From contig NZ_AP027059.1 in assembly GCF_030295325.1 (NCBI RefSeq), forward strand, positions 1,112,637-1,176,636: a stretch of 64,000 nt of DNA. Direction: 5' to 3'. Below, piece by piece: positions 26,011 through 31,982 of this stretch. Position 1 is the stretch's first letter, and each line of letters starts with the position of its first letter. The notes under the pieces are model-generated. The model was not told the DNA's origin and made no database searches. It worked only from the letters and a program-made list of their open reading frames with translations. The stretch comes from Haliovirga abyssi. Its GTDB lineage: Bacteria; Fusobacteriota; Fusobacteriia; Fusobacteriales; Haliovirgaceae. Made by a program: the position numbers and the translations under genes.

Positions 26011-26571
26011 TTATTTTGCTCTCTCTAAATATTCATCAGTTCTTGTATCTATTCTAATTATATCACCTTGATTTATAAATAGTGGAACCATTATTTCATG
26101 TCCAGTACTTAATTCAGCAGATTTTAATGCTCTACCTGTAGTATCTCCTTTTAATCCTGGTTCTGTATATACAACTTCTCTATCTAATGTAGTTGGCATT
26201 TCGATACCTACTGCTCTACCTTCATAAAAGACTACTAATATTTCCATATTTTCTTCTAAATATTTTAAAGCATCTCCTAAATCTTCTTTTGTTAAATTAA
26301 GTTCTTCCCAAGTTTCTTGATTTTGAAATGCATATTGTCCACCATTTTCGTAAATGTATACCATTTTTTGTTTATCAAGAATAATATCATCAACTTTATC
26401 TGCAGCTTTCAAAACTGTTTCTGATTTTGCATTTGTCAATAAATTTTTAAACTTAAATTTTACAACTGCTGAACTACGACCTGATTTACTAAACTCTGCT
26501 TTTTGTACTATGAAAACATCATTTCCTATCTTGATTATATTTCCAGCTCTTATTTCTTTTGCGTTTTTCAT
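26011..26571 (-). CDS. efp: Elongation factor P with Arg32 modification site
   Basis: 186 aa, full length. KOW-like N-terminal domain, then two OB domains, with the family signature in GLKGDTTGRALKSAELSTG. EF-P binds between the P and E sites of the ribosome and relieves stalling at polyproline. The tip loop reads KSGRSS with Arg at position 32 rather than the Lys used by the EpmA or 5-aminopentanol pathways. The gene just upstream on the same strand is EarP, which rhamnosylates exactly this Arg in known cases. The RBS AAGGAGG precedes ATG. The two genes share the promoter at 27812-27840. Confidence 0.96.
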   Translation of the reverse strand: MKNAKEIRAGNIIKIGNDVFIVQKAEFSKSGRSSAVVKFKFKNLLTNAKSETVLKAADKVDDIILDKQKMVYIYENGGQYAFQNQETWEELNLTKEDLGDALKYLEENMEILVVFYEGRAVGIEMPTTLDREVVYTEPGLKGDTTGRALKSAELSTGHEIMVPLFINQGDIIRIDTRTDEYLERAK

Positions 26572-26634
26572 TAAATTAATCCTCCTTAAAATATTGTTTA
26601 TATTAATTCCTAATCTATATTAGGAAAAGTAATA

Positions 26635-27783
26635 TTAAATTTTTTCATTGATAAATTCTATCAATTGTTTTGTTAAATCACATTTTTTTATTAAATATTC
26701 ACTAAATTTTTTAAAAAAAGAGCTATTATCTAATATAATATTAAATAAATCATCAAAATTTATTTCAAAATTATTTTCAATTTCATCTTTCAAAATATTA
26801 TTAGTAGAAATAGAAATATCTTTATATTTTTTAAAAATATCTGCATTTATATCAATATTTTCACTCATTCTATCTAAAAAAGAATTTAATTTATCCAAAT
26901 GAATATACTCTTCTTGTTTATAAATATGCCATAAAAATGGAATACCTGAAATTGTAGCTCTTGCAAGAGATTCTTCACCTCTTACAAAATTAAAATCCAT
27001 TAAATTTATTAAATAATCATAATCCTTTTGTATAAAAAAAGGCATATATAGAATATGTATATTTTTATATATTTTAATCTCTTTCAATATAAAGTCAAAA
27101 CTTTTCTGCGTTTTTTCTCCACATAAAAATATATAAATATTTTTATTAACTTTTGACAATGATTTTATCATACTCTTAAAATTAAATTCATAAGTAAAAA
27201 TTGAAATATAAAGATTACTCTTATTATAAATACAATTAATGTTTTTTTCTTTAAAAAAATTATTAAAATATTTTTCTTTTGAAGAATTAATTGATTTAAT
27301 CATTGAAAGATAATCATAATCTAATATAATTCCACCACTTTTTTCAGTAAAACCTGGCATAAAAAAATATTTTTCAATACCTTCATAATAGGATATAGAT
27401 TTTTTTTTATGAAAACCTTCAATCCAAGTTTCACCAGATAGATATTCTAAATTTATAATTAACTTTGCATTTTCAGATATACTTTTTTTGAAAAAATCAG
27501 GAATCTCTGTTCCAAAAGCTTCAATAATAACTTTAGAAGCATTGTATTTAAAACTGTTTTGACTTACTCTTTCGATATTTATAATATTTAAATTTTCAAA
27601 ATTATTAATTATTAAATTGGAATCAAAATTTTCAACTAATTTTTTTACTTCTGTATATTTATTAATATAAATGTTAATAAGTATATTTTTATTGATTTGA
27701 TGAATATTCTTTGCTAATCTATAAACAACACCAATATCTCCATAATTATCAATAACATCACAAAATATATCTATATTAAACAT
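26635..27783 (-). CDS. earP: EF-P arginine rhamnosyltransferase EarP
   Basis: 382 aa, the family's usual length. It starts IDIFCDVIDNYGDIGVVYRL, the EarP signature with the Asp needed for catalysis, and continues with EYLSGETWIEGFH, MPGFTEKSGG and the dTDP-rhamnose site region NFVRGEESLARATISG then PFLWHIYKQ. It transfers rhamnose from dTDP-rhamnose to EF-P Arg32. I use ATG 27783 (RBS TAGGAGAG); a longer frame to 27840 would run over the promoter. efp follows after 63 nt with a small hairpin (26607-26626) between. Confidence 0.93.
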   Translation of the reverse strand: MFNIDIFCDVIDNYGDIGVVYRLAKNIHQINKNILINIYINKYTEVKKLVENFDSNLIINNFENLNIINIERVSQNSFKYNASKVIIEAFGTEIPDFFKKSISENAKLIINLEYLSGETWIEGFHKKKSISYYEGIEKYFFMPGFTEKSGGIILDYDYLSMIKSINSSKEKYFNNFFKEKNINCIYNKSNLYISIFTYEFNFKSMIKSLSKVNKNIYIFLCGEKTQKSFDFILKEIKIYKNIHILYMPFFIQKDYDYLINLMDFNFVRGEESLARATISGIPFLWHIYKQEEYIHLDKLNSFLDRMSENIDINADIFKKYKDISISTNNILKDEIENNFEINFDDLFNIILDNSSFFKKFSEYLIKKCDLTKQLIEFINEKI

Positions 27784-27811
27784 AATATCTCTCCTAAAAC
27801 TTATTAATACA

Positions 27812-27840
27812 ATTATATCAAAAAAGTTAATTAAATACAA
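27812..27840 (-). promoter_or_regulatory. Promoter of earP-efp
   Basis: On the minus strand TTGTAT, 17 nt, TATAAT, with TGA before the -10 (-10 at 27812-27817, -35 at 27835-27840). Confidence 0.75.
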
Positions 27841-28176: not shown

Positions 28177-28211
28177 TTCTTAAATACAAATTTATAAAGG
28201 GGATGTCAGAT

Positions 28212-29228
28212 ATGGTTATAGTAATGAAAAATAATGCAACAGAAGAACAAATAAAAAAAGTTATTGAAAGGGTTGAAAGCTTAGGATTAAAAGCTCATCC
28301 TATTTATGGTCAAGAAAAGACAATAATAGGTGTAATTGGAGATGAAAATATATTAAGAGCTCATCCAGTTAATCCGTATGAAGGAGTTGAAGAGGTAAAA
28401 TCAATAGCAAAACCATTTAAATTTGCTAGTCGTGAATTTAAACAAGAAGATACAATAATAGATGTAAACGGAATTAAAATAGGTGGCGGAAATTTTGTAG
28501 TTATGGCAGGACCTTGTTCTGTTGAAAATAGAGATATGCTTTTTGAAACTGCAAAAAGAGTAAAAGAAGCTGGAGCTTCTATCTTGAGAGGTGGAGCATT
28601 CAAACCAAGAACTAGCCCATATGATTTTCAAGGACTTGGAGAAGAGGGATTAAAATATTTAAAAGAAGCTGCAATAGAATATAATATGGCTGTTATTACA
28701 GAAGTAATGGATGCAAGAGATATTGAACTTATTGATAAATATGCAGATATATTTCAAGTTGGGGCAAGAAATATGCAAAACTTCACTCTTTTAAAAGAAT
28801 TAGGAAAAACTGATAAACCTGTTATGTTAAAAAGAGGAATGGCTGCAACTGTAAAAGATTTATTAATGGCTGCTGAATATATAATTGCATCTGGAAATAA
28901 AAATGTAATATTATGTGAAAGAGGAATTAGAACATTTGAAACTTATACAAGAAATACAGTTGATATAAATATAATACCATCTGTAAAAGAGTTGTCGCAT
29001 TTACCTATAATTATTGATTCTAGTCATGGAACTGGTAGAAGGTCTCATGTTGGGCCAATAGCTCTTGCAGGTCTTGTAGCTGGTGCTGATGGGTCAATGA
29101 TAGAAGTCCATCCTTCACCAGAAAATGCACTATCTGACGGACCTCAATCACTTAGATTTCATGAATTTGATGAGTTAATGTCAAAAATGAAAAAATATTT
29201 AGAATTTGAGGGTAGAAAATTATCATAA
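28212..29228 (+). CDS. aroF: 3-Deoxy-7-phosphoheptulonate synthase
   Basis: 338 aa. The first step of the shikimate pathway: PEP plus erythrose 4-phosphate to DAHP. An N-terminal ferredoxin-like domain (about 1-70, MVIVMKNNATEEQIKKVIE) precedes the class I beta-type barrel; the barrel shows VMAGPCSVEN, GGAFKPRTSPYDFQG, ARNMQNF and IDSSHGTGRR. In Thermotoga-type enzymes this N-terminal domain mediates feedback inhibition by Tyr or Phe. I choose ATG 28212, 9 nt after AAAGGGG, over ATG 28203. A terminator follows, so it is monocistronic and separate from aroK and aroB. Confidence 0.95.
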   Translation: MVIVMKNNATEEQIKKVIERVESLGLKAHPIYGQEKTIIGVIGDENILRAHPVNPYEGVEEVKSIAKPFKFASREFKQEDTIIDVNGIKIGGGNFVVMAGPCSVENRDMLFETAKRVKEAGASILRGGAFKPRTSPYDFQGLGEEGLKYLKEAAIEYNMAVITEVMDARDIELIDKYADIFQVGARNMQNFTLLKELGKTDKPVMLKRGMAATVKDLLMAAEYIIASGNKNVILCERGIRTFETYTRNTVDINIIPSVKELSHLPIIIDSSHGTGRRSHVGPIALAGLVAGADGSMIEVHPSPENALSDGPQSLRFHEFDELMSKMKKYLEFEGRKLS

Positions 29229-29368: not shown

Positions 29369-29440
29369 TAAAAGTTTAAAACAAAATGGGAATATATTTT
29401 TAATCTATTTCTATAAAAATTAATCTATTTCTATAAAAAT
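29369..29440. repeat. Repeat family 1 remnant and 20-bp tandem duplication
   Basis: AAAGTTTAAAACAAAATGGG (29370 onward) is the right half of a family 1 repeat. It is followed by two exact 20-bp copies, 29401-29420 and 29421-29440 (TAATCTATTTCTATAAAAAT). They lie in the aroK leader, between promoter and RBS. Confidence 0.7.
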
Positions 29441-29464
29441 TAATCTTTTGAAATTGGAGGAATT

Positions 29465-29980
29465 ATGAAAAAAAATATTGTATTAATTGGATATATGGGA
29501 ACAGGAAAAAGCACAATAGGGAAAATTCTTTCAAAAGAGCTTAAAATGGAATTTATTGATACAGACCTTTTAATTGAAAAAAATATTAAAATGAGTATCA
29601 AAGATATCTTTGAAAATTTTGGAGAAAAATATTTTAGAGATTTAGAAAGCAAGATTGCAAAAGAAGTTTCAAAACTTAATAATAAAATAATTTCTACTGG
29701 TGGTGGAATTGTATTACGTGATGAAAATATAAATAACTTGAAAAAAACTGGAATGGTGGTTTTATTAAAAGCAAATGCAGATACAATTTATGAAAGGGTT
29801 AGCAAAAATTCAGATAGGCCATTATTAAATGTAGAAAATCCAAAAGAAAAAATAAATAAAATGTTAATAGAAAGAAAATTAAATTATGAAAGATTTAAAG
29901 ATATTGAAATAGAAACAGATAATAAAACAGTAAATGAAATTTTTGAAATAATTAAAGAAAATTATTTTAAAACAGTTTAA
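29465..29980 (+). CDS. aroK: Shikimate kinase
   Basis: 171 aa, full length. Walker A is GYMGTGKST (residues 9-17), the shikimate-binding Asp and Arg lie in FIDTDLLIE and ENFGEKYFRDLES, GGG in ISTGGGIVL, and the lid Arg in NSDRPLL. It phosphorylates shikimate at O3 with ATP in the cytoplasm. RBS TTGGAGG. aroB-ppx follows after 22 nt, so the two are one operon. Confidence 0.95.
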   Translation: MKKNIVLIGYMGTGKSTIGKILSKELKMEFIDTDLLIEKNIKMSIKDIFENFGEKYFRDLESKIAKEVSKLNNKIISTGGGIVLRDENINNLKKTGMVVLLKANADTIYERVSKNSDRPLLNVENPKEKINKMLIERKLNYERFKDIEIETDNKTVNEIFEIIKENYFKTV

Positions 29981-30002
29981 TTAATCGAAAGAGGTGTCCT
30001 TT

Positions 30003-31982
30003 ATGAAAAGAATAAATGTTAATGTAGTAAATAATAATTATGAAATTTTATTAGGTGAAAACACTTTAAAGGACTTGAAAAAATATTTGCCTAAAAATTA
30101 CAAAAAAATATTAATTGTATCAAATGATACTGTTGGACCAATTTATATAAACAAAGTAAAAAAAGCTTTAAATGATGAATCAATAGAACTTCATTATTTT
30201 GAAATTCCAGATGGGGAAGAATATAAAAAGCTAGATACAGTTCTTCCAATATATGATTATATGATAGAAAATAATTTTGATAGAAGTAGTTTAATAATCT
30301 CTTTAGGTGGAGGAGTAGTTTGTGATTTAACAGGATATGTTGCTGCTACATTTATGAGAGGAATTGACTTTATCCAAATACCAACATCCCTATTAGCTCA
30401 AGTAGATGCAAGTATTGGAGGAAAAGTAGCTGTAAATCATCCGAAAGGTAAAAATTTAATCGGTAGTTTTTATCAACCAAAGCTTGTGTTTATTGATATT
30501 GCTGTTTTGAAGAGTTTACCATTAAGAGAAATAAAAACTGGATTAGCAGAAATTATAAAACATGCTATTATTAAAGATAAAGATTACTTCAAATTTTTAA
30601 AAGAAAATTCTGATAAAATATTAAATTTGGAATCTAAATATATAATTGAAATGATTAAAAAATCATGTGAGATAAAAGCAGAAGTTGTATCAGAAGATGA
30701 AAAAGAGCAAGGGATTAGAGCTATATTAAATTATGGACATACTTATGGACATGTAGTTGAAAATTTAACACAATATAAAGTTTATAGACATGGAGAAGCT
30801 GTTGTATTTGGGATAATGTTTGCAACTTATTTAGCAAAAAAAATAAGAGGAGTTAACGAAAGTATTGTCACAGAAATTGAAGAAATATTCGATAAATTTG
30901 GGATGGATATAATTATTCCAAAGTTTAATTTTAATAAAGTGCTTCAAATATTAAAACATGATAAAAAAGTAAAAGATGGAAAATTAATATTTGTTTTACC
31001 AACATCTATAGGAACTGCAGAGATAATAGCTATTACAGAAGAACAAGTTAAAGAAGTTTATGAAAAGATAAATGGCGCTGATGTAAAAGGTGTTATTGAT
31101 ATTGGAACAAATAGTGTTAGATTATTTATTGGAGAAGTATATGAAAATAATATTTTAAATAAATTTTTAAAATTGATTAATATTACAAGATTAGGAGAAA
31201 ATGTAGATAAAACTAATTTGTTAGAAAATAAAGCTATTGAAAGAACAGTTAATGTTCTTAAGGAGTATAAAAATATATCTGATAGCTATGGTGTTACAAG
31301 CTTAAAAACAATTGCAACAAGTGCTGCAAGGGATGCTTTAAATAAAGATGATTTTTTAAAAGCAGCTTTAGATGTGGCAGGAGTAAAAGTTGATGTTGTT
31401 TCTGGAGAAGTAGAAGGAAATTACTCTTTTAAAGGAGTTTTAAGTTCTGGATATAAGTCTGATATTATAGTTGTGGATATTGGTGGCGGAAGTACCGAAT
31501 TTATCTATGGAAATAATAAAACTGGTGTAAAGTTTATTAAAAGTTTAAATATAGGCTCAGTTAGAATTAAAGAAAAATTTTTTAAAAGTGATATTTATGA
31601 TAATTTAAATGAATGTAAAAAATGGATATTTAATGAATTAGAAACAATTAAAGAATTAAAAGATAAAAAATTTAAACTTATTGGAGTTGCAGGAACTATT
31701 ACAACGCAAGTAACAATTTTAAAAGCTATGGCTGAATATAATTCAGATGAAGTAAATGGATATAATTTAAAGTATACAGATATTTCAAATAATTTTGAGA
31801 TGTTATCAAATTTATCAATAGAGAATAGAAAAAATGTAGTAGGATTAGAAGAAAAAAGAGCTGACGTAATTGTTGCAGGAACATTTTTATTAAAAACAAT
31901 TTTAGAGTTCTTTTCACAAGAATCAATTGAAGTTTCTGATAACGATATTTTAGAAGGAATGATTTTAGATAAAACTCGTTAA
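30003..31982 (+). CDS. aroB: 3-Dehydroquinate synthase fused to Ppx/GppA-type phosphatase
   Basis: 659 aa, about twice the length of AroB. Residues 1-350 are complete AroB: SLGGGVVCDLTGYVA (NAD site), MRGIDFIQIPTSLLAQVDAS, KTGLAEIIKHAII and NYGHTYGHVVE (zinc His). From about 360 a Ppx/GppA ASKHA domain starts with GVIDIGTNSVRLFIGE and has TSAARDALN, VVDIGGGSTEF and GVAGTITT. The join is in frame with no stop. AroB makes 3-dehydroquinate from DAHP; the second domain would hydrolyse polyphosphate or (p)ppGpp. Proteins of this arrangement are annotated in related bacteria, so the fusion is likely real. I start at ATG 30003 (RBS AAGAGG). Confidence 0.93.
   Translation: MKRINVNVVNNNYEILLGENTLKDLKKYLPKNYKKILIVSNDTVGPIYINKVKKALNDESIELHYFEIPDGEEYKKLDTVLPIYDYMIENNFDRSSLIISLGGGVVCDLTGYVAATFMRGIDFIQIPTSLLAQVDASIGGKVAVNHPKGKNLIGSFYQPKLVFIDIAVLKSLPLREIKTGLAEIIKHAIIKDKDYFKFLKENSDKILNLESKYIIEMIKKSCEIKAEVVSEDEKEQGIRAILNYGHTYGHVVENLTQYKVYRHGEAVVFGIMFATYLAKKIRGVNESIVTEIEEIFDKFGMDIIIPKFNFNKVLQILKHDKKVKDGKLIFVLPTSIGTAEIIAITEEQVKEVYEKINGADVKGVIDIGTNSVRLFIGEVYENNILNKFLKLINITRLGENVDKTNLLENKAIERTVNVLKEYKNISDSYGVTSLKTIATSAARDALNKDDFLKAALDVAGVKVDVVSGEVEGNYSFKGVLSSGYKSDIIVVDIGGGSTEFIYGNNKTGVKFIKSLNIGSVRIKEKFFKSDIYDNLNECKKWIFNELETIKELKDKKFKLIGVAGTITTQVTILKAMAEYNSDEVNGYNLKYTDISNNFEMLSNLSIENRKNVVGLEEKRADVIVAGTFLLKTILEFFSQESIEVSDNDILEGMILDKTR

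Follow-up and report, generated by a model that had tools for sequence, protein, structure and literature searches.

A 3-dehydroquinate synthase fused to a short Ppx/GppA phosphatase in Haliovirga abyssi and related Fusobacteriota

Introduction

The 3-dehydroquinate (DHQ) synthase AroB is known as a protein of its own (TIGR01357; PDB 3okf, 6lk2) and as one part of larger polypeptides, namely the bifunctional AroK-AroB proteins (PRK14021, PRK13951) and the pentafunctional AROM, which unite steps of one pathway. Short Ppx/GppA phosphatases include the Aquifex aeolicus protein (2j4r/1t6c) and Rv0496 and Rv1026 of Mycobacterium. Activity varies among such short proteins, and belonging to the family therefore does not settle the substrate: PMC3411833 describes M. 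tuberculosis Rv0496 as an exopolyphosphatase, and pppGpp as cleaved by neither Rv0496 nor Rv1026.

Here, we analyzed 64,000 nucleotides of the Haliovirga abyssi genome (contig NZ_AP027059.1, positions 1,112,637 to 1,176,636; the window), in which the two kinds of enzyme share one reading frame. Like known AroB proteins, the H. abyssi AroB half has the whole catalytic unit with an intact active site, but it bears a second enzyme at its C-terminal end, and AroB is catalytically degraded in 3 of the 40 fusions found. The phosphatase half has the fold and conserved motifs of the short Ppx/GppA proteins, but is fused behind AroB and is not the Ppx that adjoins polyphosphate kinase (PPK) in relatives. 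As in AroK-AroB and AROM, AroB lies inside a multidomain polypeptide; here, however, the partner lies outside the pathway, and a biosynthetic enzyme shares its chain with an alarmone/polyphosphate-family phosphatase, unlike in the AroB fusions named. No paper on an AroB-Ppx fusion was among the matches listed in the open-licence literature. The relatives of H. abyssi include natural controls (an active fusion, a fusion with AroB activity lost, complete removal of the AroB half, and a lone Ppx at the same locus), making it directly testable whether the fusion itself matters.

The fused frame

Profile matches bear out a preliminary description of the locus as AroB and Ppx/GppA halves in one polypeptide (Table 1). 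The AroB half exceeds the curated cut-off of TIGR01357 (392.8 bits against 305; residues 13-351) and those of PF01761 and PF24621. Bifunctional AroK-AroB models match its AroB part only, far below their cut-offs (228.2 against 565 and 185.7 against 560 bits), and aroK is a separate gene in H. abyssi. The second half belongs to the Ppx/GppA superfamily (PF02541, 211.7 bits against a gathering score of 27; residues 388-657). Its top NCBIfam match is the exopolyphosphatase model TIGR03706, from residue 363 onward, though at 242.7 bits this falls below the cut-off of 307, and the E. coli-type GppA model NF008260 reaches 93.8 of the 624 bits of its cut-off, with only model positions 7-297 of 496 covered. 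The frame ends where the matched Ppx family region ends, and this fused copy is the only Ppx match in the H. abyssi genome. In structure searches the AroB half matched solved DHQ synthases (e.g., PDB 3okf and 6lk2), and the nearest solved structure for the Ppx half was A. aeolicus PPX/GppA (2j4r/1t6c). The best 50 PDB rows from Foldseek comprised DHQ synthases (including AROM), one 2-deoxy-scyllo-inosose synthase, and Ppx/GppA proteins, with no chain among these 50 uniting the AroB and Ppx kinds.

Table 1. Features of the fusion locus, in window positions
Feature	Position	Strand	Remarks
DAHP synthase (aroF-type), step preceding AroB	28203..29228	+	PRK08673, TIGR01361
aroK, shikimate kinase	29465..29980	+	22 nt upstream of the fusion; PRK13947 best
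Shine-Dalgarno-like AGAGGTG	29990..29996	+	Read in the sequence, shortly 5' of the ATG at 30003
AroB-Ppx fusion ORF	30003-31982	+	659 aa, ATG start, stop-free
AroB (3-dehydroquinate synthase) half	30003..31055	+	Residues 1-351; TIGR01357, PF01761 + PF24621
Junction	31056..31088	+	Residues 352-362
Ppx/GppA phosphatase half, short form	31089..31973	+	Residues 363-657; PF02541

Active-site motifs are kept in both halves, as had been proposed. All 17 AroB positions checked, mapped by motif, are present in the H. abyssi protein, including E183, H246, and H263, which we take to be metal residues, and R119, D135, K141, K225, R239, N243, H250, and K321, presumably active-site residues. All 17 are intact in 37 of the 40 fusions and degraded in the other three, all of genus g10; at E265, an additional position of doubtful standing, genome G013 has K. 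In the Ppx half, the checked positions, which we assume to represent the catalytic glutamate and the phosphate-binding loops, include D366, N370, R373, R443, E471, D492, G494, G495, S497, and E499, all intact in H. abyssi. These residues and G518 are kept in 40/40 fusions, which speaks against the inactive second domain considered in the preliminary description. Variation is confined to a few fusions, at S371, T498, and T565 (S/T exchanges) and at G564 (A in G082).

The AroB half probably converts DAHP into 3-dehydroquinate. Upstream on the same strand lie a DAHP synthase gene (PRK08673, 508.3 bits against a cut-off of 335; TIGR01361, 405.3 against 267.75) and aroK, which scores 188.3 bits with PRK13947, short of its cut-off of 204; no shikimate kinase model reaches its cut-off on this gene. 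A gene of the same cluster as aroK also precedes the fusion in G058 and the lone ppx in G080. The fused AroB is the lone AroB match in 36 of the 37 genomes with an intact fusion, and chorismate synthase (AroC) was found in 36 of these 37, the exception being G064 (67% complete); both counts support the activity proposed for the AroB half. G043 is unique among the 37 in carrying a second, stand-alone AroB (C1:2184039-2185046) besides an active fused one. The H. abyssi genome has one chorismate synthase gene; its location near Rel was considered as an aro operon and rejected, as no other aro gene is present there among nine tested. Promoter-like sites were no commoner than in shuffled sequences.

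One product or two

An AlphaFold2 prediction built on a four-row alignment gave a best model with a pLDDT of 80.9 (58.8-72.7 for the other four of the five) and a pTM of 0.60, which leaves the relative placement of the AroB and Ppx halves unsure. In this model the final AroB helix (346-356) is followed by two residues and then by the first Ppx strand (359-367), so that there is predicted to be little or no linker between the halves; confidence at the junction is middling (mean pLDDT of 68 for residues 351-360). The spacing from the AroB DKK to the Ppx IDIG motif is 42-46 aa in 37/40 fusions and 62 aa in the three degraded ones.

A product split in two by internal initiation or proteolysis is highly improbable. 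Some in-frame ATG, GTG, or TTG occurs in 28/40 junctions, about as the background rate predicts, and relatives have a stand-alone Ppx, both of which would be compatible with splitting. However, an in-frame start with a Shine-Dalgarno sequence is present in 2/40 junctions, where the remainder of the genes predicts about 3.9, and the H. abyssi junction has no in-frame ATG, GTG, or TTG. An internal start, one conceivable route to the two proteins raised earlier, was rejected because start plus Shine-Dalgarno is not above background across the 40 junctions.

Phyletic range

Mapping the fusion across 98 Fusobacteriota genomes, we found it in one frame in 40, comprising H. abyssi, the sole member of family f1 in the set, and 39/61 members of family f4, while it is absent from f3 (0/33) and the remaining families (0/3). 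It spans 12 genera of f4. All genomes have it in g19 (2/2), g9 (12/12), g11 (3/3), g7 (2/2), g23 (2/2), g13 (3/3), g24 (1/1), g15 (3/3), g10 (3/3), and g26 (1/1); others are mixed or lack it (g6, 6/12; g25, 1/2; g4, 0/7; g21, 0/8). End-to-end identity to the H. abyssi frame is 40-53% in 36 of the 39 homologous frames and lower in G084 (37%), G083 (33%), and G021 (39% and 30%, its single 706-codon frame having been matched in two parts, one per half). These 39 further frames show that the fusion is no accident of one genome and support the earlier view of it as a trait of a lineage, but not as a fixed one: 22/61 f4 members have no fusion, some in incomplete assemblies, and several lineages lost the AroB half.

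An exact-pattern scan of contigs returned 77 stretches, and tblastn located both halves in three, two from Cetobacterium (L106 and L117; Fusobacteriaceae, Fusobacteriota) and one from Ilyobacter polytropus (L112, starting within AroB). The other 74/77 do not contain both halves and thus revealed no fusion outside the phylum; since the pattern matches 4/40 known fusions, absence outside Fusobacteriota is weakly supported. A separate contig scan with the fusion protein as the query gave no match.

Probable single origin and repeated loss of AroB

Phylogenetic trees give good support to a single origin of the fusion, followed by repeated loss of AroB with Ppx kept. In the AroB tree, one branch with 98% support splits 37 fused from 19 stand-alone sequences once four rows (partial G080 and the three degraded sequences of g10) are left out; with all 60 rows, the fused/stand-alone label needs two changes rather than one. 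In the Ppx tree (without the G001 fragment), the lone Ppx proteins of g4, g21, part of g6, and G080 are nested among fused ones, with six label changes, at least four of them forced by well-supported branches. Constraining fused Ppx to one clade was rejected (p-AU of 0.00046, on a tree also without the Megasphaera outgroup row). Quick searches produced the trees, in which stand-alone copies account for 20 AroB and 19 Ppx rows, few of them from f3.

Gene order agrees with the trees. In the common order, BrkB-like, small, and htpX-like genes precede the fusion on one strand, and beyond it, on the opposite strand, lie a small gene and then selD-, selA-, selB-, and yedF-type genes; these names are in part our assumption, Pfam having been run on one representative per cluster. 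The small gene 3' of the fusion encodes an acylphosphatase or an 86- to 99-aa protein without a Pfam match. A selD-type gene is close downstream in 17 of the 35 neighborhoods compared (window included). Many f4 genomes (L150-L155, L159-L165) have the Ppx gene shortly before selenocysteine genes (selD-, selA-, selB-, and yedF-type, and Se/S carrier).

In the split g6 genomes G015, G029, G039, G072, and G073, AroB is gone with the gene order unchanged, and the C-terminal end of Ppx is fused to the 86- to 99-aa protein, as it also is in G071, on a short contig. That protein is encoded by a separate downstream gene in g6 relatives with the fusion; a second fusion after AroB loss is thus seen at L026, L028, L030, L180, L182, and L183 (G039, G029, G015, G073, G071, and G072, respectively). 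In g4 the lone Ppx likewise stands behind htpX, and in G080 a gap of 18 bases separates aroK from a ppx that has no AroB. Ten split genomes with a testable intergenic stretch have no AroB remnant 5' of Ppx, the search yielding only chance-like matches of 12-29 aa (E of 0.07-0.9), also found in five fusion-genome controls.

In 16 of the 19 fusion-less f4 genomes in which both genes were found, coordinates read by eye place stand-alone aroB no more than 2.5 kb from aroC (not so in G027, G031, and G080). For the fused gene, a distance to aroC of 3 kb or less applies in 1/36 (G078). These distances suggest that the fused AroB became redundant through an aroB located in an aro cluster.

These losses are also what one would expect if neighboring enzymes had passively merged by loss of a stop codon, with no effect beyond equal expression. 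In favor of this explanation, AroB-losing lineages keep Ppx alone (at the same locus in g6 and g4) and leave no upstream remnant; stand-alone aroB took over, so the halves are separable; and dN of the two halves is within 1.5-fold in 12/13 genome pairs. On the other hand, the fusion was retained across the 12 f4 genera and H. abyssi, the domain spacing is nearly fixed, and the predicted model is almost linker-free. A passive fusion would also require the g10 pseudoenzyme described below to be a separate, later development, and purifying selection persists on that dead AroB half. We regard a passive origin without further consequence as a serious possibility, albeit a somewhat doubtful one.

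A degraded AroB half under selection

The three g10 genomes, G021, G083, and G084 (99, 92, and 97% complete), represent three species, and chorismate synthase was not found in any of them. Their AroB halves have the changes R119G, D135N, K225E, R239E, and K321P in common and are also without K141, N243, H246, and H250; TIGR01357 scores fall to 135 (G021) and 165 (G084) bits in the two tested. Of the columns invariant in the 37 active fusions, g10 kept 17/51 in AroB and 36/36 in Ppx, which suggests that Ppx is the constant, retained part of the fusion. An inactive half therefore does occur, though not the one anticipated in the preliminary description: where a half is dead, it is AroB, in 3/40.

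The degraded half has not drifted freely. For G021-G083, at a dS of 1.3-1.5, which is near saturation, dN/dS is 0.171 for AroB (bootstrap, 0.097-0.245; 0.124 in its N-terminal and 0.212 in its C-terminal part) and 0.174 for Ppx, with 5, 22, 43, and 0 of 1,000 resamples, respectively, dropped for undefined dS; dS is saturated for G021-G084 and G083-G084. Neutral simulation without stops left a mean identity of 13% and a maximum of 19% (60 runs), against 64.7% observed. Moreover, G021 and G084 have 50.6% of AroB residues in common despite third-position GC of 0.71 and 0.19. Within g10, third-position GC of the fused gene is 0.71 in G021, 0.69 in G083, and 0.19 in G084. The alignments thus document both the loss of AroB catalytic residues from these fusions and selection on that half, which looks like a conserved pseudoenzyme domain. 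With the residues lost yet purifying selection in force, we conclude that the g10 AroB half is translated and selected for something besides DHQ synthase activity.

Substrate of the phosphatase half

The preliminary description had linked the second half to turnover of polyphosphate or (p)ppGpp. The tie to polyphosphate is disfavored, since neither PPK1 (PF02503) nor PPK2 (PF03976) was found in the H. abyssi genome. This Ppx, fused or orthologous, is present in 33/60 relatives searched, 19 of which are without PPK1 or PPK2 above cut-off; among the 60 are 21 fusion genomes, 8 with PPK and 13, H. abyssi included, with none above cut-off. A single PPK2 match in G007 is below cut-off.

PMC7552824 describes physical linkage as the usual arrangement of ppk and ppx, in keeping with our use of linkage as a substrate clue. 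Of the non-orthologous Ppx-GppA matches above cut-off, 16/20 have a PPK gene no farther than 2.6 kb away (those away from PPK being in G001, G028 [borderline], G047, and G052), against 0/14 for the orthologous Ppx of PPK genomes, even within 30 kb on one contig (by eye; several assemblies are drafts). A different Ppx adjoins PPK in 14 of the 16 genomes with PPK1, except in G001 (other contig) and G058, which indicates that the partner in polyphosphate metabolism is usually another paralogue. G047 (C3:17589-18497) and G052 (C10:88462-89370) carry a further Ppx-GppA type in 675-codon frames with no detected PPK nearby.

If the Ppx half were nevertheless an exopolyphosphatase, the fusion would tie aromatic synthesis to polyphosphate. 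TIGR03706 as the best, if sub-threshold, NCBIfam match, the activity attributed to the short homologue Rv0496 in PMC3411833, and the eight fusion genomes with PPK all lean this way. So does one of these eight, G058, where PPK1 is present and no Ppx besides the fused one was matched, so that the protein may be a polyphosphatase there. Set against this are the missing PPK in most fusion genomes searched and the linkage contrast between orthologous and other Ppx genes. We therefore judge this assignment quite unlikely and, G058 being the contrary case, rejected the polyphosphate link as first choice because H. abyssi has no PPK and a different Ppx usually stands beside PPK.

Gene content and linkage instead favor (p)ppGpp or related nucleotides as the probable substrate. 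The single RelA_SpoT gene of H. abyssi encodes a full-length Rel, in which HD, synthetase, TGS, and ACT domains are all present. RelA_SpoT genes are present in 59/60 genomes, also in Ppx-less ones, and co-occurrence was rejected as a non-discriminating clue. In three g21 genomes the lone orthologous Ppx is followed by an acylphosphatase gene and then by a gene with a RelA_SpoT domain (Pfam-tested in one); in G054 the RelA_SpoT gene is about 0.75 kb from Ppx by coordinates. The two are close in 4/4 g21 genomes examined, of eight in the genus. Counting against the link to Rel, the adjoining gene is on the opposite strand.

Role of the fusion

Our best reading, in which we have about even confidence as a whole, combines these lines. 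Two complete enzymes, AroB and a short Ppx/GppA phosphatase, would have become fused once, long ago. As the only DHQ synthase of the cell, the AroB half would turn DAHP into 3-dehydroquinate. The Ppx half would most likely be a GppA-like phosphatase; we infer that its substrate is (p)ppGpp, or a related nucleoside polyphosphate that the Rel of this genome produces, rather than polyphosphate. The AroB domain would also be a non-catalytic N-terminal platform for the phosphatase, serving folding, dimerization, or regulation. Such a platform is suggested by the near lack of a linker and would explain why genomes that have lost the shikimate pathway still conserve AroB as a pseudoenzyme. However, the platform would be dispensable, given that Ppx occurs free of AroB in at least three or four sister lineages. 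The dead AroB may also be conserved for a newly acquired role that has nothing to do with Ppx. Overall, the AroB half appears to be needed for aromatics where the pathway exists and to have a non-catalytic value in at least one genus.

The fusion may also link the two pathways in regulation. Such cross-talk could go further if AroB were a built-in sensor, with DAHP/NAD occupancy of the DHQ synthase site altering pppGpp hydrolysis. This version seems unlikely to us; were it true, aromatic-precursor shortage would feed directly into the stringent response, and the g10 AroB would have decayed to a pseudoenzyme with regulation as its sole task and perhaps a new ligand.

Other observations in the window

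On the minus strand at 26011-27840, an EF-P-like gene (by eye) is paired with a gene for a divergent EarP arginine rhamnosyltransferase (TIGR03837, 277.8 bits, below the cut-off of 347). Shortly 5' of aroK, at 29402-29448, lies a direct tandem repeat of the 20-base unit ttaatctatttctataaaaa, present as two copies and a part.
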